A stretch of 37,981 bases of DNA from an uncultured Ignavibacteria bacterium (lineage in GTDB: Bacteria > Bacteroidota > Ignavibacteria > Ch128b), in assembly GCA_937944105.1 (NCBI GenBank), contig CALDZP010000035.1, forward strand, positions 1-37,981, in the 5' to 3' direction. Shown piece after piece: positions 1,422 to 14,684 of this stretch (within the stretch, counting starts at the first letter, position 1; every line of letters begins with the position of its first letter). Below the pieces are notes generated by a model that saw nothing but the letters and a program-made list of their open reading frames with translations, was not told where the DNA came from and ran no database searches. The position numbers and the translations under genes were made by a program.

Positions 1422-1697
1422 TTACAACAATTCACGTTTAGCATACCAGATTTTGAAAAAATTGATCACAATGAATCCGAGTGCAGAGATACCAATAGAA
1501 ATTACAAGAACTAAATCCAAGCCTAATGTAAATGTACCACGAGTTTCAATAACTACTCGACCTGTCTTAGGATCCACTAATTCTGAAGGGGGATAAATTT
1601 TCGTAAACATTTCAAATCCATCAAAACCCCACCATACAAAAAGAGAAATGATCAATGTAGATACAACAAAAAATACAATTCGCTTAATGATAATCAT
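1422..1697 (-). CDS. Small two-helix membrane protein, function unknown
   Basis: A 91-aa protein with two predicted membrane segments, about residues 7-25 and 61-82. They are separated by a roughly 35-residue polar loop that contains a Pro-Pro and several charged residues, and the protein ends in a short basic tail (KIWYAKREL). I do not recognise the family. Its ATG overlaps the TGA of the upstream propeller regulator gene (ATGA overlap), so the two are almost certainly translationally coupled. That makes it a candidate membrane partner of the regulator, but this is inference from context only. Confidence 0.7.
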   Translation of the reverse strand: MIIIKRIVFFVVSTLIISLFVWWGFDGFEMFTKIYPPSELVDPKTGRVVIETRGTFTLGLDLVLVISIGISALGFIVINFFKIWYAKRELL

Positions 1698-4381
1698 TCA
1701 TTCTCCCTTTTATTTCTAAGCAGGTTTAGTTTCTTTAATCTGTAATGAAAAGTTGAATGGGGAATATTCAAAAGTTTTGCTGCTGCTCTTATATTCCAAT
1801 TTGTTTTCTCAAGGGCACTAATATATTGTTTGATTTCTTCAGCTTCACGAGAGTTTTTAACAATAACTTCTATTCTTGACTTTTCAACGAATTCAGTTCC
1901 ATTGTCAAAATCTTCAAATTTTTGTCTTAATGAATTCTCAAGTTCATCTATTTGTTTTTTAAGTGAATTATTTTCTTCTCTTAATTCATCGATTATTTTT
2001 TCTTTTTCTAAAATTATTTTTGTTAATGATTCAACCTTTTCTTCGAGTTTTTTCTTTAATTCTTCAATTTTATCATCGTGTTGCAATTTTTTATCATCTG
2101 ATATTTTTACTTTTTCGAAATCACTATCCGAGGCCACATCTATTTTTTCGGGATTTCTTCTTTGCTTTATGTATTTTCCAATTGATAAAAAAGCAACATA
2201 CAAGAAAACTAAAGCAAAAAAGATGCTACCGTAGAGCATAAAATGTTTTAAGAAATCAGATTGTATTTCAAATTTTAATTCACTTGAGTTCTTTAACCAG
2301 TTTAAACCATCAACTGAGGCTTCAACGATCAAAGTATATTTACCTGGTGAAAGGTCTTTATATTTGATTTCATTCGAATTGGTAAGATAATTCCAATTAT
2401 CTTCAAATTCTTTAATCTTGTAACGATATATAACTCTCTTCTCATCATAAAATGAAAAAATTGAAACATCAATTTTGATTTCATTTTCATCTTGAGAAAT
2501 TTTAATATTATCTAAATCATATGTTCTTTTATTAGTTGAAAAACCAGTGAAATAAATTTTATAAGTAAAAGTATTTCGTTTGAAATATTTTAATTCAATT
2601 ATAGTTAAACCAGAATTTGTTCCAATAAAAACAATTCCATTTTGTTTATCATACTCAAGATCTTTAATATAGTCTGAAAGTAGACCATCTCTTGCCGTTA
2701 ATGAAGAATATTCTAATCCATTTTTAATGATAAAAATTCCTTTAGTAGTTGCGACCCAGACTTCGTTTTGAGCAACAGGAATTACATCATTTACTTGATC
2801 TATGGTATATCCACCGATTTTGGGTATGAGATTATTGAACCTCCCATTTTTGAAAGATGACAATCCTCTCTTCGTACCAATCCATATCCTACCATCATAA
2901 TCCTCGCTTAAAGAGGTTACATGATTATTTATTAAACCATTTCCAGTTCTTAAAACAGTTACAGCACCTTCAGAATATTTAACAAGCCCATTATCTGTAC
3001 CTATAAATATATCACCCGATTTTGTCACAAGAATCGAATTTATTTCATTTGAAGGAAGTATATTATCGATAGAAAGATAATCTATTAATTTGATCCCCTT
3101 AAAAATAAAAACACCTGAATCTGTTCCAACATAAATTTTATTTTCTGAGTCTTTTGCAAGTGATAAAATTTTTCTAGAATTGATCTGGGAATTAAGAGGG
3201 GATAAAAACAATTTATTTCCTTGAAAAACATAAAGTCCATTGTTTGTTCCAATGAGCTTCTGTCCTAAAGGAGATTCAATCACATCGTTAACAATAATAC
3301 CGGAAGAATTAAAACTATAATTTGAAAATGAGAGCGAATTCGAATTAAAGATCGAGATACCTTCACCGGAGAAAACTTCAAAACCTTTATCGTTTTTAAG
3401 AATTTTATGAATAGATGAAGTTACCTTTGGAAAAAGCGATGGATAATTTTTGATTGCAAGCGAGTTAAGTTTAGCAATTCCGTTTAAAGTACCAATCCAA
3501 ATGTTCCCTTCACGATCTTCAAATATTGATGTAACTACTTGATGGGGTAACCCATTTGAATAACTAATAAAATCTTTTCGTTTATTTTCAATATGAAAAA
3601 CACCATCATCAAATCCAGCCCATATTGAATTTGAGCGATCAACAAGCAACGAAAATCTAGAATAGTTACTTGTTGAATTATGTAATTCCACAGGATGAAA
3701 ATTTTCGATCCTGTAAATTTTACCACTTGAAGTGACATAAACAATATTGTTATTCTTATCAAGACATAATCTTTCTACTCTAATAGGTTTGCCAGAATTA
3801 TCTTGACTGAATTTATATTTTATCCTGTTGTACTGAAATATTATTAAACCTTCATCAGAAGCTATGGCATAACCATTATCAATTGCAACGATATCGTTAA
3901 AATTTGTCTGTGGAAGTAATGCATCAACAAGTATTTTAGTTACTTCAGAATCACTATGGGCTATGTAAAATTCATTATTCTCCGAAATCATTAAAAGTCT
4001 ACCACCATCCTTTTTAAGAACTTTTATTTTTTTTGGAAGATAAGCAAGACGCTGATTTAAATTTATAATCTGTTTGTTTGAATTTATTACAAATAGCCCT
4101 TTTGTTGAAGTCGCAATCCACATTTGATTTTTCAATTCAGCCAGACCACTAATTTCTGTCCTGAGCTCGTTATTCCATAAACTAACTTCTTCAAATCTAT
4201 ACCCATCATAACGAAAAACATTTGAGGTAGTACCAATCCAGATATAGCCTTTATTATCTTGTGATAAGCAAGTAATCGAAGTATTTGATAGTCCATTGCT
4301 AGAATTATAATAATGGAAATAATATAATTGAGAAAATAGGGAGCTGGAAGTAATTAGAAAAATAATAAGTAATCTTTTCAT
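1694..4381 (-). CDS. Transmembrane beta-propeller sensor with C-terminal Fis-type HTH
   Basis: An 895-aa sensor-regulator. Residues 1-17 form a signal peptide or anchor. Residues about 20-620 hold repeated Reg_prop blades of the form D.G.IWIGT..G (for example near residues 44-60, 290-305 and 490-505). A Y_Y_Y domain (about 645-700, with YRYKIKEFEDNW and LSPGKYTL) follows, then one membrane helix (about 712-738), a long Glu/Lys-rich coiled coil (about 755-830) and a Fis/NtrC-type HTH (about 852-888, with NWNIRAAAKLLNIPHSTFHY). In the family, Reg_prop/Y_Y_Y modules normally precede a histidine kinase and often an AraC-type receiver output. No HisKA, HATPase or receiver motif is seen here. I infer that an extracytoplasmic signal acts through a dimerising coiled coil directly on a DNA-binding end. 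The ligand is unknown; related hybrid regulators often sense glycans. Confidence 0.87.
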   Translation of the reverse strand: MKRLLIIFLITSSSLFSQLYYFHYYNSSNGLSNTSITCLSQDNKGYIWIGTTSNVFRYDGYRFEEVSLWNNELRTEISGLAELKNQMWIATSTKGLFVINSNKQIINLNQRLAYLPKKIKVLKKDGGRLLMISENNEFYIAHSDSEVTKILVDALLPQTNFNDIVAIDNGYAIASDEGLIIFQYNRIKYKFSQDNSGKPIRVERLCLDKNNNIVYVTSSGKIYRIENFHPVELHNSTSNYSRFSLLVDRSNSIWAGFDDGVFHIENKRKDFISYSNGLPHQVVTSIFEDREGNIWIGTLNGIAKLNSLAIKNYPSLFPKVTSSIHKILKNDKGFEVFSGEGISIFNSNSLSFSNYSFNSSGIIVNDVIESPLGQKLIGTNNGLYVFQGNKLFLSPLNSQINSRKILSLAKDSENKIYVGTDSGVFIFKGIKLIDYLSIDNILPSNEINSILVTKSGDIFIGTDNGLVKYSEGAVTVLRTGNGLINNHVTSLSEDYDGRIWIGTKRGLSSFKNGRFNNLIPKIGGYTIDQVNDVIPVAQNEVWVATTKGIFIIKNGLEYSSLTARDGLLSDYIKDLEYDKQNGIVFIGTNSGLTIIELKYFKRNTFTYKIYFTGFSTNKRTYDLDNIKISQDENEIKIDVSIFSFYDEKRVIYRYKIKEFEDNWNYLTNSNEIKYKDLSPGKYTLIVEASVDGLNWLKNSSELKFEIQSDFLKHFMLYGSIFFALVFLYVAFLSIGKYIKQRRNPEKIDVASDSDFEKVKISDDKKLQHDDKIEELKKKLEEKVESLTKIILEKEKIIDELREENNSLKKQIDELENSLRQKFEDFDNGTEFVEKSRIEVIVKNSREAEEIKQYISALEKTNWNIRAAAKLLNIPHSTFHYRLKKLNLLRNKRENE

Positions 4382-4607
4382 CTGAAATCTATAATATCTA
4401 ATTGCGTTTTGAAAATCAATTTTAATTATTAAAAATTTAATAAAGATTTAAGAAATTTTTATCGAGAAAATAATCCTAACAAAGAGCAAGTATTTACACT
4501 TTTTTACTAATTAAGCCTTCATTAAATTGTTATTGAGTAGAGTTCGTTTCACATTAACAACAAAAAAATCCCAAAGAGTGAATCGGATATTTCAAGGATT
4601 TTAGCAT

Positions 4608-8193: not shown

Positions 8194-11100
8194 ATGCTGA
8201 AATATAAAACAATATTGGTAGTGGGTTTGTTTTTGTTTTTAATTAATCATGCAAATTCACAAACACCTTCAGGCGATACTTACTTGCAAGGTTTCTACTG
8301 GAATGTTGTACCTGGTGGTGTTTGGTGGGATAGTTTAACTAAGCTCGCAACAAAAATTAAAAGTGCTGGTTTTTCTGCAATATATATTCCTCCACCATCC
8401 AAAGGTGCAGGTGGCGGTTTTTCCATGGGATATGATATTTACGATCACTACGATTTCGGGGATTTCTATCAAAAAGGTTCAATAAAGACTCGTTTTGGAA
8501 GTAAATTAGAATTACAAAGCATGATCCAAACTTTTAAATCACTTGGATTAGATGTCTATGTCGATGTGGTCTTAAATCATACCGCTGGTGGTGAACTAAA
8601 ATCAAAGAATAATTGCAGAACTGACTCAGCATATCTTATCTTTAATTATCCTTTCGGCAGCAAACGATTTCCCAAGAACGCTAATTCATTTAATCCAAGT
8701 GAAAATAATAATTGCAACCAATCTCCACCGTACAATGATAATTTTTTCTCATTCGCAAATGACAATTGCACCGACTGTCCAGATGTTAGAGATAGTTTAA
8801 TCGTTTGGGGACAATATCTAAAAAATTACTTTGGCTTTAATGGTGCTCGATTAGATGCTGTTAAACACATAAACCCATTATTCATCTCTCAATTTTCAAA
8901 TCAAGCTTTCCCTTCGTCTTATCTCGTGGCTGAATATATTGGTAATGGCGATGAAATAAGAAATTATTACAACCAACTTGTTTATCTTGGAGCCGGTCAG
9001 GTTTCATTCCTCGATTTTCCTTTAAGATACACTTTAGCTGATATGTGTAATAATGCTTCTGGTAGTTTTGACATGCGCCAACTTGATTATGCAGGATTGA
9101 TTTTTGGTAAAGGAATGTCAGGTTTTAATGTCTCAACTTTTGTTGAAAATCATGATTTCGATCGAATGGGATGGGATGGCACAATTGATACAGCCGTCGG
9201 TGGACACTCTCCCATCTTTCGTGATAAGCATCTTGCATACGCTTACATTATCTTTTCTGAGGGAAGACCTCTTGTCTTCTTTAAAGATTATTTTGATTAT
9301 CAATTAGGTTCTTTGATTGATACTTTGATCTTTATTCGCCATAAATTTTTAGGTGGAAATACTACTTTAAGAAATGGACTTGACCCATGGTATGTAAGAC
9401 AGGATGGCAATCAAGACCAAGAATTACTTGCAAGAGATATCTATGTTGCTCGAAGAAATGGATGGCAACATCAAATTGGTGGTTATCTTGTACTTAATGA
9501 TAATCCTGTACATAGAATTGATGTTTGGGTTGACACAGAATCTCCGATTGGCACTGTATATAAAGATTATTCTGGGAAAGATGAAAATAAAGTAGTAGTA
9601 GGTCCAAAACCAGGTGGAACAAAAAACAGAATAAAGTTAGGCGCGCCTCCCAGAAGTTTCACAATTTATGTTGCCGATACTTCTCAATCGATTAATCATT
9701 CCCCTGTTTTACAGAAAATTGGGAATTTGAATGCTTATACATTTTCTAAGTTTAGTTATCAGATTATTGCAAGTGATGTAAATAACGATGAATTGTTTTT
9801 CACCATTCAAAATAAACCAAATTGGTTAAATCTTAATTCATCTGGATTTTTATCTGGCACGCCTCAAATAACAGACACTGGTTTTTATGGAAATATTATT
9901 ATCAATGTTATGGATAACAAAGGTGGATTCGATGCCGACACTTTTTCAATTACTGTTTACTTGAATCATTTCCCAATAATTTCTCCATTATCAGATACAA
10001 CTTCTTATGCAACACAAAGATTTGAAAGACAAATTGTTGCATATGATTTAGACAATGACACTTTGTTTTATTCATTTATTCAAAGACCATACTGGCTTGG
10101 ACTCGATACTTTAACTGGATTAATGGCTGGTATTCCTTCTCCTGAAGATACTGGAAAATATTTTATTATTTTCAGAGTTTATGATTCAAAAGGTGGAGCA
10201 GATACTTCTTCATTTTATTTAAACATTAAACCAAAGAAGGATTCTGTTATTTATACATATGCAAAACCAAAAATTGATGGAAGAATTACTATTGGTCAAG
10301 AAGATTGGCGTGAGGAGTGGCTTATTGTTGATGACCCTGATAACGATTCAAGATGGACATTGGTCAACGAATTTTACGATTTGTTTTTTACATATGATGC
10401 AGATAGTATGTACCTTGGTGCTAAATATACTCTAGTTAATAATACTCTACAAATATTTATTGATACTGGTATTGATGGTGGCGAAACCAATTTCAATAGT
10501 TATTATGGCTACATGGGGGCTTTCCCAAGAAACTTCAGATTTAAACAGGAAGATAATATAGATCTGATGATTGCAGCATGGAACAGAGAAAAACCAAGAA
10601 TTTTTAAGATTAAAGACTCTAACTCATTTGAGATATCATCATTTTGTTCACGAGCTGGTTCAACGGAAGCTGAAGTTGCAATATCCTGGAATTCTATTTT
10701 TGGACTTGGACCGGGATTGGTTCCACCTTATACGAAACTCAAAATTGTTGCTGTTATCTCTGGTGGAGAAAATTGGGGGGGCGGAGATGCAGCTCCTTCA
10801 AATTGTGATATCGATTTATGTCCTCCAGGAAATGATACTCTTTATCAGGGACCTGATTCATTAATTACTCTATACATGGCAGAGATTGACAAAGATGGAG
10901 ACGGTATTCCAGATCCAACAGTTGTTATTTCTTCCATAGAAGAAATAAAAAATACTAATTCTAATCCAAATAATTTTTTAAGTTCTAACATTTATCCCAA
11001 TCCTTTTAATTCAAAGGCAAAACTTGATATTAACTTAAACAAAGAAACAAATCTTGAAATAAAAATTTATGATCTGATTGGAAAAGAAGTTGATTTAATA

Positions 11101-11232
11101 TTTAATGATAAAGTCAAATCAGGTTCTTATTCATTTTTAATAGGTTCATCTAAACTGGCCAGTGGGATATATTTTGTAAGAATTAAAACAGACGAAATCA
11201 TTCAAATGAAAAAAATTATTTTAATCAAATAA
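8194..11232 (+). CDS. Secreted modular GH13 alpha-amylase with T9SS sorting domain
   Basis: Hydrolyses alpha-1,4-glucan outside the cell. Module order: signal peptide (1-22); GH13 catalytic domain (about 25-490) with region I DVYVDVVLNHT (about 118-128), nucleophile D221 in GARLDAVKH, acid/base E247 in LVAEYIG and the transition-state aspartate D321 in FVENHD; two cadherin/He_PIG-like domains (about 500-588 and 590-678), each with a conserved LSGTP or MAGIP turn; a CBM9/DOMON-like domain starting at PKIDGRI (about 690-890); an acidic DKDGDGIPDP calcium-type loop (about 898-907); and a C-terminal Por sorting domain starting at IYPNPFNS and ending KKIILIK. All three catalytic acids are present. 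AAAGG lies nine bases before the ATG. The next secreted protein follows after 17 bases. Confidence 0.93.
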   Translation: MLKYKTILVVGLFLFLINHANSQTPSGDTYLQGFYWNVVPGGVWWDSLTKLATKIKSAGFSAIYIPPPSKGAGGGFSMGYDIYDHYDFGDFYQKGSIKTRFGSKLELQSMIQTFKSLGLDVYVDVVLNHTAGGELKSKNNCRTDSAYLIFNYPFGSKRFPKNANSFNPSENNNCNQSPPYNDNFFSFANDNCTDCPDVRDSLIVWGQYLKNYFGFNGARLDAVKHINPLFISQFSNQAFPSSYLVAEYIGNGDEIRNYYNQLVYLGAGQVSFLDFPLRYTLADMCNNASGSFDMRQLDYAGLIFGKGMSGFNVSTFVENHDFDRMGWDGTIDTAVGGHSPIFRDKHLAYAYIIFSEGRPLVFFKDYFDYQLGSLIDTLIFIRHKFLGGNTTLRNGLDPWYVRQDGNQDQELLARDIYVARRNGWQHQIGGYLVLNDNPVHRIDVWVDTESPIGTVYKDYSGKDENKVVVGPKPGGTKNRIKLGAPPRSFTIYVADTSQSINHSPVLQKIGNLNAYTFSKFSYQIIASDVNNDELFFTIQNKPNWLNLNSSGFLSGTPQITDTGFYGNIIINVMDNKGGFDADTFSITVYLNHFPIISPLSDTTSYATQRFERQIVAYDLDNDTLFYSFIQRPYWLGLDTLTGLMAGIPSPEDTGKYFIIFRVYDSKGGADTSSFYLNIKPKKDSVIYTYAKPKIDGRITIGQEDWREEWLIVDDPDNDSRWTLVNEFYDLFFTYDADSMYLGAKYTLVNNTLQIFIDTGIDGGETNFNSYYGYMGAFPRNFRFKQEDNIDLMIAAWNREKPRIFKIKDSNSFEISSFCSRAGSTEAEVAISWNSIFGLGPGLVPPYTKLKIVAVISGGENWGGGDAAPSNCDIDLCPPGNDTLYQGPDSLITLYMAEIDKDGDGIPDPTVVISSIEEIKNTNSNPNNFLSSNIYPNPFNSKAKLDINLNKETNLEIKIYDLIGKEVDLIFNDKVKSGSYSFLIGSSKLASGIYFVRIKTDEIIQMKKIILIK

Positions 11233-11249
11233 AAATAGTGAGGTGAAAG

Positions 11250-13991
11250 ATGAAAAAAATTCTTCCAGCTATAACTATAATATTTACAGTGGGTATTTTA
11301 TTTGCAACTACATATCATACCATAATTATTGATGGTAATAATGATTTTCAATCGGACGAGACTTTCTCAACATCTTCTTCGGGTTATGTTGCTTATGCAA
11401 CATGGGATGAAAACAATTTATATCTAGGTTATTCCGGTTATGATATTGGAAGTGGACAGAGCTCCACCAAGTGGATTGTATTTTACATTGATACCGATGC
11501 TAATTTAAATCCAACTAGTGGTAATGGAACTCAGAATGCCATAGGTTTTAATACACAAAATTGGATTCTTCCATTTAGAGCTGATTATATGATCCAAATT
11601 CGAACTGATGGTGGATATAATGCATTAAAATATTTCAATGGTTCAAACTGGGTTGATGTATCACCTCACAATATGAACATTTTTGATAACAACACCTCAA
11701 ACTTTATTGAAATCCAAATTCCAAAAACACGTTTAAACAATCCAGAAAAAATTTATATCCTTGGATATTTCATAAATGAACAAAGCGGTGGTGAATGGAC
11801 ATATGCCAGTTTTCCCGATAATTCATTACGCAACGGCGATGGTTACAAAAATCCAGGTTACTTTGACCACTGGTATGGTTTTGAATTAACAAATGGAATT
11901 TCTCCTAATGCTCCAGTTAATTATGATAATAAAGAATTCTTAAAATGGGATGTAAGACTTGGGGCTTCAATAGCCACTGCAGGACTTAATGACAATAATA
12001 ATTTCGCAGGTATGGCACTTAATGCAACAGACGGTTATGTTCAAAATGTTGACTTAGATAAACCACCAGCACCACCATCAAATTATGTTTATTTAGCATT
12101 TCCACACACCGACTGGTCAAGTCCTTTGGGTCCATATTTCTATCGTGATATTCAATCTTATAAACTACTTGATACATCAACTGTATATTGGGATTTTATT
12201 GTCTCTACAGACAAAACAAATTCAGAAGTAACGTTATCGGTTTCAGAATTTTCTGACGTTCCTCCAAATTATGATATTTACATCAAAGACCTCGTTAACA
12301 ATCAACTTCATAACATTAAAACACAAGGCAGCTATTTGTACAATTCCGGTCTGGGAGGTACAAGAAACTTCAAATTAATAATTGGTAAATATGTACCCAA
12401 TATTGTAGCACCTTCAAGTTTAGATTTTGGAAATGTTAAACTTGAATATGATTCATCGAAGACTTTGACAATTGTGAACAGTGGTCTCGAAACTTTAATT
12501 ATTTCAAACTTATCAGTTACTGGTAATTTTTCTGTTATCGGTGCTGTAACTCCAATCAATATTCCAGCTGGAGGTAGTACAAATCTTACATTAAAGTTTT
12601 CACCAAATCAATTAGGAATGAATTCTGGAACTTTAACAATTACCAGTAATGATCCGGATTCACCAAATTTTATAATTAACTTATTGGGAACAGGAATTAA
12701 ACCAACTTTAAGAAAAAAATTTTCTCCTGGTTGGAATCTAATTGGTCTTCCCCTTTATCCTTCTAATCCATCAAAAGATTCAATCTTTTCACCATTTACA
12801 TCAAATTTTATCTTGTTCAAATTTTCCAATGGCAGTTATGTAAGTGCTGATTCGGTTCTTATCGGTAAAGCTTACTGGCTTGGTCTAAATGACTCATTGA
12901 ATTTCTCCATTACGGGTATGCCCGTTCTATCAGATACAACTATTGCACTTGAAAATGGATGGAATCTTATCTCTCATCTTTACATTAAAGATTTACGAAA
13001 AGCTAACCTCTTAATTAAAAGTGGAGCTGAAATCATTTCACTCGATTCGGCAGTTAATCGAGGATGGGTACAGGGTAATTTATTCTCTTTTGCAAACTCA
13101 ACTAATTCTTATGTTTCGATCGATACTCTTGATCAATTCTATGGATACTGGTTCGCTGCTTTAAGATCAGGATTAGAATTAAAATTTGTAAAAAACCAAA
13201 CCTTTGGAAATCCACCTAAAATTAAATCCGATTTCAGGGACGAAAGAAATTGGATTGTACATCTCTCAGCACAAAATTCAATTTCGAAAGATAACTTATT
13301 CTATTTTGGTTTAAATGAACTTGCTTCCTCTGAATTTGACAATAGATTTGATAATGCGAAACCCCCAATTTTCCCTAACGATAGTGCTGTAGAAATTTAT
13401 TTCAAACGAAATAACTGGCATCCATTTTTCACTAAATACTTATCCGATGTAAGAAAATTTATTCCAAATCAAACTTATAATTGGGATTTTGAATTTGCTT
13501 CCAGAAAAGCTGAACAATCAAGAATAAGCTGGGATAATTTGTCTGAAATCTTTCCTCCCGATTACCTTGAAATGTATTCATTCTTGCTAATTGATATTAC
13601 AAATAATCGAACTATTGATATGAAATCAACAAATACCTATCAATTTAATCACAATGGATCGATCACCAAATTTGCAATAAAATTTGGAAAACTTACTAAT
13701 GTTAACGAAAAATTATATTCATACAATTATGAATTAGGTCAGAATTATCCCAACCCATTTAATCCTACCACAAAAATATCATTCTCACTAAAAGAAAAAA
13801 CTTTTGTTACAATAAAATTATACAACTCACTTGGTAAAGAAATAATTAATCTTATAAGTGAAGAAAAAGATGCTGGAAATTATGAGATTCAAATAGATGC
13901 AAATAAACTTGGAATCACAAGTGGAGTTTATTTTTATAAGATGATTGCAGGAAATTTTACTGCTATTAAAAAATTAGTTTATATTAAATAG
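11250..13991 (+). CDS. Large secreted protein, CBM9-like N-terminus, ASPM/HYDIN-like domain, T9SS signal
   Basis: A 913-aa exported protein without a recognised catalytic domain. A signal peptide (1-19) is followed by a beta-rich module beginning HTIIIDGNNDF (about 22-215). This has the WDENNLYLGYSG pattern of CBM9/DOMON-like domains, which bind sugars or heme. An ASPM/SPD-2/HYDIN-type domain (about 388-483) shows the classic SLDFGNV start, LTFSPN-like core and TITSNDPDSP. A region with repeated GWNLIG / GWNLIS motifs (about 490-660) follows, and the C-terminal Por sorting domain starts QNYPNPFNPTT (about 831) and ends KKLVYIK. It is co-transcribed with the amylase. I infer surface display and starch or oligosaccharide binding; no enzymatic role is supported. 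Confidence 0.85.
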   Translation: MKKILPAITIIFTVGILFATTYHTIIIDGNNDFQSDETFSTSSSGYVAYATWDENNLYLGYSGYDIGSGQSSTKWIVFYIDTDANLNPTSGNGTQNAIGFNTQNWILPFRADYMIQIRTDGGYNALKYFNGSNWVDVSPHNMNIFDNNTSNFIEIQIPKTRLNNPEKIYILGYFINEQSGGEWTYASFPDNSLRNGDGYKNPGYFDHWYGFELTNGISPNAPVNYDNKEFLKWDVRLGASIATAGLNDNNNFAGMALNATDGYVQNVDLDKPPAPPSNYVYLAFPHTDWSSPLGPYFYRDIQSYKLLDTSTVYWDFIVSTDKTNSEVTLSVSEFSDVPPNYDIYIKDLVNNQLHNIKTQGSYLYNSGLGGTRNFKLIIGKYVPNIVAPSSLDFGNVKLEYDSSKTLTIVNSGLETLIISNLSVTGNFSVIGAVTPINIPAGGSTNLTLKFSPNQLGMNSGTLTITSNDPDSPNFIINLLGTGIKPTLRKKFSPGWNLIGLPLYPSNPSKDSIFSPFTSNFILFKFSNGSYVSADSVLIGKAYWLGLNDSLNFSITGMPVLSDTTIALENGWNLISHLYIKDLRKANLLIKSGAEIISLDSAVNRGWVQGNLFSFANSTNSYVSIDTLDQFYGYWFAALRSGLELKFVKNQTFGNPPKIKSDFRDERNWIVHLSAQNSISKDNLFYFGLNELASSEFDNRFDNAKPPIFPNDSAVEIYFKRNNWHPFFTKYLSDVRKFIPNQTYNWDFEFASRKAEQSRISWDNLSEIFPPDYLEMYSFLLIDITNNRTIDMKSTNTYQFNHNGSITKFAIKFGKLTNVNEKLYSYNYELGQNYPNPFNPTTKISFSLKEKTFVTIKLYNSLGKEIINLISEEKDAGNYEIQIDANKLGITSGVYFYKMIAGNFTAIKKLVYIK

Positions 13992-14129: not shown

Positions 14130-14684
14130 ATGAATAAATATAAAGAATACCATCTAACATTTAACGAAAAAATTATCGCAGGCGATAAAGAAGCCTTTAA
14201 AGAGTTTTTCTATGATAATTATAATGATGTATTTAGATTTATCTACCATATGACTTTTGATAGGGAGGCTGCACTGGATTTAACTCAAGATACTTTTCTT
14301 AACTTTTATAAATCAATTGAAAAATTAAATCCTGCTATATCACCTAATTATTATCTTTTTAGAATTGCAAAGAATGTCACTTTAAATTACCTGAATCGAC
14401 TTGATCAGGTCTCATATTATAATTTAGATGATGAAGAAACTCATAAGGAATTTATATCAAATCCCGAAGATGAATATTCTGCTTATTTCTTTGAAAATGA
14501 TATCCAGAAAGCTATTGAATCACTACCTAACCGTTGTCGTGCTGTTTTTATCTTGAGTCGATATCACAATTTGACTTACCAAGAAATTTCAGAAACTTTA
14601 GAAATTTCTTTACAAACAGTTAAAAATCAGATTAATAAAGCTATCGCAATTCTTAAAAAGAAATTATCTCACTATCTGGATTAA
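14130..14684 (+). CDS. ECF-type RNA polymerase sigma factor
   Basis: A 184-aa alternative sigma factor of the sigma-70 family that would direct RNA polymerase to a specific promoter set. Region 2 spans about residues 8-87, with the DLTQDTFLNFY core-binding stretch. Region 4 spans about 127-181, with SLPNRCRAVFILSRYHNLTY and the HTH EISETLEISLQTVKNQI. There is no region 3, as is usual for ECF members. No anti-sigma factor gene is adjacent; the following gene encodes an eIF2B-like protein 22 bases away. The signal and regulon are unknown. AAGAG precedes the ATG. Confidence in the family is high; confidence in the physiological role is low. Confidence 0.9.
   Translation: MNKYKEYHLTFNEKIIAGDKEAFKEFFYDNYNDVFRFIYHMTFDREAALDLTQDTFLNFYKSIEKLNPAISPNYYLFRIAKNVTLNYLNRLDQVSYYNLDDEETHKEFISNPEDEYSAYFFENDIQKAIESLPNRCRAVFILSRYHNLTYQEISETLEISLQTVKNQINKAIAILKKKLSHYLD

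Follow-up and report, generated by a model that had tools for sequence, protein, structure and literature searches.

The hybrid two-component systems (HTCS) of Bacteroides, such as BT4663, BT4673 and BT3049, combine two Reg_prop propellers and a Y_Y_Y domain, a single transmembrane (TM) helix, a kinase, a receiver and a C-terminal helix-turn-helix (HTH) of the AraC type. Oligosaccharide binding is described for large sensors of this type (PMC3243724; PMC7815789). A phosphorelay is dispensed with in SusR of Bacteroides, which is described as a periplasmic sensor, a TM segment and a cytoplasmic HTH, with a DNA-binding domain of its own that is unlike other known families (PMC3878776). Transmembrane transcription regulators (TTRs) in general have been surveyed across 50,302 proteins, of which 7.7% contain Y_Y_Y domains and 8.2% contain two-component core domains (PMC10269533). 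ToxR, CadC and TcpP exemplify their one-component logic with a single TM helix, and several such regulators are accompanied by a small co-operating protein, such as ToxS, TcpH and VtrC (PMC10269533, Table 1). Likewise, in Rsp of Neisseria gonorrhoeae the PilS-type membrane receptor of a kinase is fused to a PilR-type DNA-binding domain, apparently as a local gene fusion (PMC10269533; PMC6528607).

We analyzed a window of 37,981 nucleotides, representing the whole of the contig stretch under study, from an uncultured bacterium of the class Ignavibacteria. It encodes a sensor-regulator in which a signal peptide, two Reg_prop propellers, a Y_Y_Y domain, a TM helix, a coiled coil and an HTH_8 domain follow one another, as established by Pfam, hydropathy and an AlphaFold2 model (Table 1). 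In the periplasmic part, Pfam detects Reg_prop (112.8 bits, E 3.8e-34) and Y_Y_Y at residues 644-706 (46.7 bits, E 2.9e-12), phmmer aligns the propeller region with the BT4663 periplasmic domain 4a2l (E 2e-36), and the top structural matches of the propellers, which form 14 blades in the model, are 4a2l/4a2m (Foldseek, E 2e-37). Its nearest solved relatives by phmmer and Foldseek are the sensor domains of BT4663 (a heparin sensor), BT4673 and BT3049.

Table 1. Features of the sensor-regulator locus, in positions of the window
Feature	Position	Strand	Basis
Sensor-regulator ORF, 895 aa	1694..4381	minus	ATG start, no internal stop
Signal peptide, residues 1-18 (MKRLLIIFLITSSSLFSQ)	4328..4381	minus	hydropathy peak at residue 4; predicted from sequence
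Two seven-bladed beta-propellers (Reg_prop), residues about 30-600	2582..4294	minus	Pfam, phmmer, model, Foldseek
Y_Y_Y domain, residues about 608-707	2261..2560	minus	Pfam; beta-sandwich in model
Single transmembrane helix, residues about 710-736	2174..2254	minus	hydropathy; model helix 710-740
Charged coiled coil, residues 770-822	1916..2074	minus	heptad test; unbroken model helix; poorly conserved sequence
Fis/NtrC-type HTH, residues about 844-888 (WNIRAAAKLLNIPHSTFHYRLKKLNLL)	1718..1852	minus	HTH_8 match, model helices, fold matches, invariant columns
91-aa protein, two predicted TM helices	1422..1697	minus	helices read from sequence; start overlaps sensor stop (ATGA)
Promoter-like element TTGATT-N17-TATTAT	4391..4419	minus	DNA alignment of five upstream regions; consensus reading

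The preliminary description of this DNA had held that the sensor is followed by one membrane helix, a long charged coiled coil and a Fis/NtrC-type HTH, with neither HisKA, HATPase nor receiver motifs, and that the protein would be a one-component transmembrane regulator; every element of this anatomy was borne out. The only strong hydrophobic segments are the signal (residues 4-22) and the TM segment (714-732, mean hydropathy 2.31), and the KYIKQRR stretch after the latter indicates, by the positive-inside rule, that the C-terminus should be cytoplasmic. The heptad periodicity of residues 768-818 exceeds that of all 2000 shuffled sequences (0/2000), and D, E, K and R make up 52% of residues 760-830. 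The full-length AlphaFold2 model (a monomer built from 5 sequences, mean pLDDT 74, pTM 0.48) has helices at 710-740 and 770-822, with the linker 736-771 between them at very low confidence. No match to HisKA, HATPase_c, Response_reg or histidine kinase models was obtained in the protein with Pfam up to E=10, and NCBIfam, up to the same E-value, detects no kinase or receiver domain; the matches falling in 740-850 are sub-cut-off coiled-coil noise. As modeled, only a helix lies between the membrane and the HTH, which leaves no space for the fold of a kinase or a receiver.

At the C-terminus, HTH_8 is detected at residues 855-885 (32.4 bits, E 7.7e-8, against a Pfam gathering cut-off of 22), and the weak NCBIfam matches to nifA and MobR are confined to this tail. 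The model places helices at 844-859, 864-870 and 875-884; when the HTH was modeled separately, the first PDB matches recovered by Foldseek were the DNA-binding domains of NtrC1, NtrC4, NtrX and Fis. The best-fitting entries superpose at an rmsd of 0.7-1.3 with probability near 1 (for 4l5e, probability 1.00, TMt 0.83 and rmsd 1.3), the E-values of only about 0.1-1 being a consequence of the 60-residue query. Of the features of the NtrC family, the protein thus has the Fis-type C-terminal HTH and lacks the AAA+ sigma54-interaction domain: Pfam returned no Sigma54_activat match in the 895-aa protein up to E=10, whereas the positive control described below (L229) scored 232 bits.

A search of other genomes for the same domain order, which had been proposed at the outset, recovered orthologues in five further genomes of the same Ignavibacteria family, so that all six sampled genomes, spanning three genera, encode the protein; this excludes chance. 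Where full length, the orthologues are 45-65% identical, and in one genome (G004) the gene is split across two contigs. In the five full-length orthologues, invariant columns make up 76% of the HTH (26/34 of positions 855-888) but only 35% of Y_Y_Y, 30% of the propellers, 10% of the linker and coiled coil and 4% of the TM segment. No other part is as well conserved as the HTH, so the sensor-HTH protein is under selection and is not a fusion accident. In 294 genomes of the class, end-to-end matches to a Y_Y_Y-to-HTH alignment were restricted to the six family genomes (at least 455 bits), the next best match reaching 70 bits and ending before the HTH, and a search with the HTH alone of 395 genomes of the phylum (E<=1e-6) found no other sensor with the HTH of the window protein; both searches can miss another HTH_8 on a propeller, and one did escape them. 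Plasmid records yielded only distant propeller sensors. The pairing of a propeller sensor with a bare HTH_8 is rare, and a single small Ignavibacteria family conserves it. The genome of the window has just one other Y_Y_Y sensor (G000:C34, L211), a 1064-aa frame with histidine-kinase motifs, which makes the contrast with the kinase-less protein a real one. Several short sensors of the class (L151, L158, L160, L231, L232) and the truncated L233 were considered as further kinase-less forms and discarded, as kinase motifs were seen in them on reading.

In relation to the described systems, the window protein shares with the HTCS the Reg_prop and Y_Y_Y sensor, the single TM helix and the C-terminal position of the HTH; in contrast to them it has neither kinase nor receiver, and its HTH is of the Fis/NtrC and not the AraC type. 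As in the TTRs, a DNA-binding domain and at least one TM helix occur in one chain without a two-component core domain. SusR, going by its described layout, is alike in lacking a phosphorelay and differs in its DNA-binding domain, and Rsp differs in having a PilS-type receptor and no propeller. In the window protein HTH_8 is C-terminal, and Pfam detects no Trans_reg_C domain; ToxR, CadC and TcpP have an N-terminal winged HTH and a C-terminal periplasmic domain, which is the opposite order. A query with the sensor retrieved 80 loci, and among these Pfam verified four kinase-less Reg_prop/Y_Y_Y proteins, in which the same sensor leads to a DNA-binding domain of a different family without any kinase match: three of the AraC type from Prevotella, Xylanibacter and Segatella records (L089, L100, L088) and one of the LytTR type from a Chitinophagales metagenome-assembled genome (L051). 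The earlier comparison to ToxR and CadC, as the same logic built from other parts, therefore survives as regards the logic; the novelty it implied does not, since the TTR class, SusR, Rsp and the AraC and LytTR proteins show that this wiring is not a new kind. What is unusual is the presence of HTH_8 without the sigma54 AAA+ domain, together with the small two-helix membrane protein whose gene comes next downstream in 6/6 genomes.

Other members of the class carry a related fusion in which the AAA+ domain is retained. In one protein (L229:797-4297, plus strand, family f10) Reg_prop, Y_Y_Y, a TM helix, a coiled coil, Sigma54_activat and HTH_8 occupy a single 1166-aa frame, and a full-length relative in another family (L235:1486-5040, minus strand, f23) is 47% identical to it. 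The propeller sensor with a complete sigma54-activator module and no kinase or receiver is thus present in at least 2 of 294 class genomes, a lower bound since the two best candidates per genome were scored; a further candidate (L230) proved to be a stand-alone AAA+ activator. These proteins share the sensor, TM helix, coiled coil and HTH_8 with the window protein, and differ in the retained AAA+ domain and in an insertion in the HTH. We take this insertion to be FhlA-like, and an HTH of this type is not the direct source of that of the window protein. These cases show that NtrC-family outputs have been attached to the same sensor on more than one occasion. A literature search, mostly without subscription papers, found no description of propeller-sigma54 proteins or of HTH_8 transmembrane regulators, and the L229/L235 fusion is possibly more unusual than the window protein itself.

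The gene for the 91-aa protein lies directly downstream of the sensor gene in all six family genomes, overlapping it by 4 bp in the window and in G004 and separated by gaps of about 8-55 bp in the other four. By analogy with the small partners of other transmembrane regulators, this protein, with its two TM helices, may serve the sensor as an accessory partner in the membrane. Other families of the class have distant homologues of it (L127-L135), which match weakly (best E 3e-10) and mostly precede the gene of a secreted protein, presumably YceI-like from its appearance. The convergent neighbor encodes RNase HIII in 6/6 genomes; upstream lies a PALP/CBS enzyme in genus g1 and ArsR/methyltransferase-like genes in genus g2. 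The first neighbors, RNase HIII and the PALP/CBS enzyme, give no hint of a regulatory target, and no glycan-use cluster adjoins the sensor gene. The promoter-like element ends 9 nt before the ATG and is conserved in the orthologues, and the sensor transcript is probably nearly leaderless. The only invariant upstream element, TTGAYTTTCAA, was considered as an operator and rejected, since it occupies the position of the -35 box and reads as promoter; the five aligned upstream regions contained no operator that we could find. Two genomes of genus g2 carry an extended form of this element in front of sdhC, but it is missing there in all three genomes that were checked in the genus of the window, and we therefore claim no regulon. 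Elsewhere in the window (8194-13991, plus strand) are genes for an alpha-amylase-like and an Ig-like secreted protein, each ending in the Por_Secre_tail of type IX secretion, followed by a gene for an ECF-type sigma factor (14130-14684).

We consider it likely that the protein is a membrane-anchored one-component transcription regulator, probably binding DNA from the membrane as a coiled-coil dimer. The two propellers and the Y_Y_Y domain would sense a ligand in the periplasm; as their nearest structural relatives belong to a kind of sensor that binds oligosaccharides, the propellers are probably glycan-binding as well. The signal would be an altered spacing or rotation of the dimer. Each chain would pass it on through its single TM helix to a parallel coiled coil, and this would bring the two HTHs into or out of the position needed for binding to a palindromic operator. 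Fis-type HTHs contact DNA in dimeric form, and a change of coiled-coil register transmitted through the TM helices would therefore be the simplest switch. RpoN is encoded in 6/6 family genomes; in the absence of the sigma54-contacting AAA+ domain the role of a classical sigma54 activator is impossible, and the HTH might act as a repressor, an anti-activator or an activator that directly contacts RNA polymerase.

An alternative that we regard as unlikely is that the DNA-binding tail is set free by regulated cleavage within or close to the TM helix, with a soluble coiled-coil/HTH dimer then acting on DNA. A large periplasmic domain, a single TM helix and a self-sufficient coiled coil with HTH would suit such release, and the very low model confidence of the linker 736-771 is as expected of a disordered linker; against it, the TM and juxtamembrane segments are the least conserved of the protein (4% and 10% invariant columns), such that no conserved cleavage motif is visible, and transmembrane regulators are described as acting at the membrane (PMC10269533). 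On these two grounds we lean slightly towards action from the membrane.

The conservation pattern also bears on whether the HTH regulates at all. It could be the leftover of a sigma54 activator or hybrid kinase that has lost its middle domains, comparable to the gonococcal fusion protein Rsp from the nps/npa locus, which has no evident role in pilE transcription (PMC6528607). Most of the frames recovered with the HTH as query do span about 450-560 residues, which matches sigma54 activators in size, and the GAFTGA motif is present in several of the frames that were read; but across three genera no segment of the protein is better conserved than the HTH, the opposite of decay, and such a remnant is very improbable. 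We give still less credence to the protein being a detached half of a two-component system whose kinase or receiver is another protein acting in trans: the 1064-aa sensor with kinase motifs elsewhere in the genome could supply a partner, but the protein has no receiver domain, and no kinase-like gene was noticed beside the sensor when the ORFs of the six genomes were read by eye.

With the membrane-anchored regulator as the preferred reading, the outputs joined to the gut-type HTCS propeller sensor comprise a kinase relay, AraC, LytTR, sigma54 AAA+ and a bare Fis-type HTH. Such different outputs on one sensor argue for a mechanical and modular passage of the signal through Y_Y_Y, the TM helix and the coiled coil, and a one-piece sensor without a phosphorelay offers a simpler chassis for tests of propeller signaling or for glycan biosensors. 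A broader scenario, which we advance as a long shot, is that Ignavibacteria repeatedly switched their Reg_prop sensors from the phosphorelay to NtrC-family outputs, either to a complete membrane-held sigma54 AAA+ activator, as in L229 and L235, or, in the family of the window, to a bare HTH_8 with a co-encoded ToxS-like two-TM partner, the latter being a membrane-tethered DNA-binding switch that could antagonize sigma54-dependent promoters.
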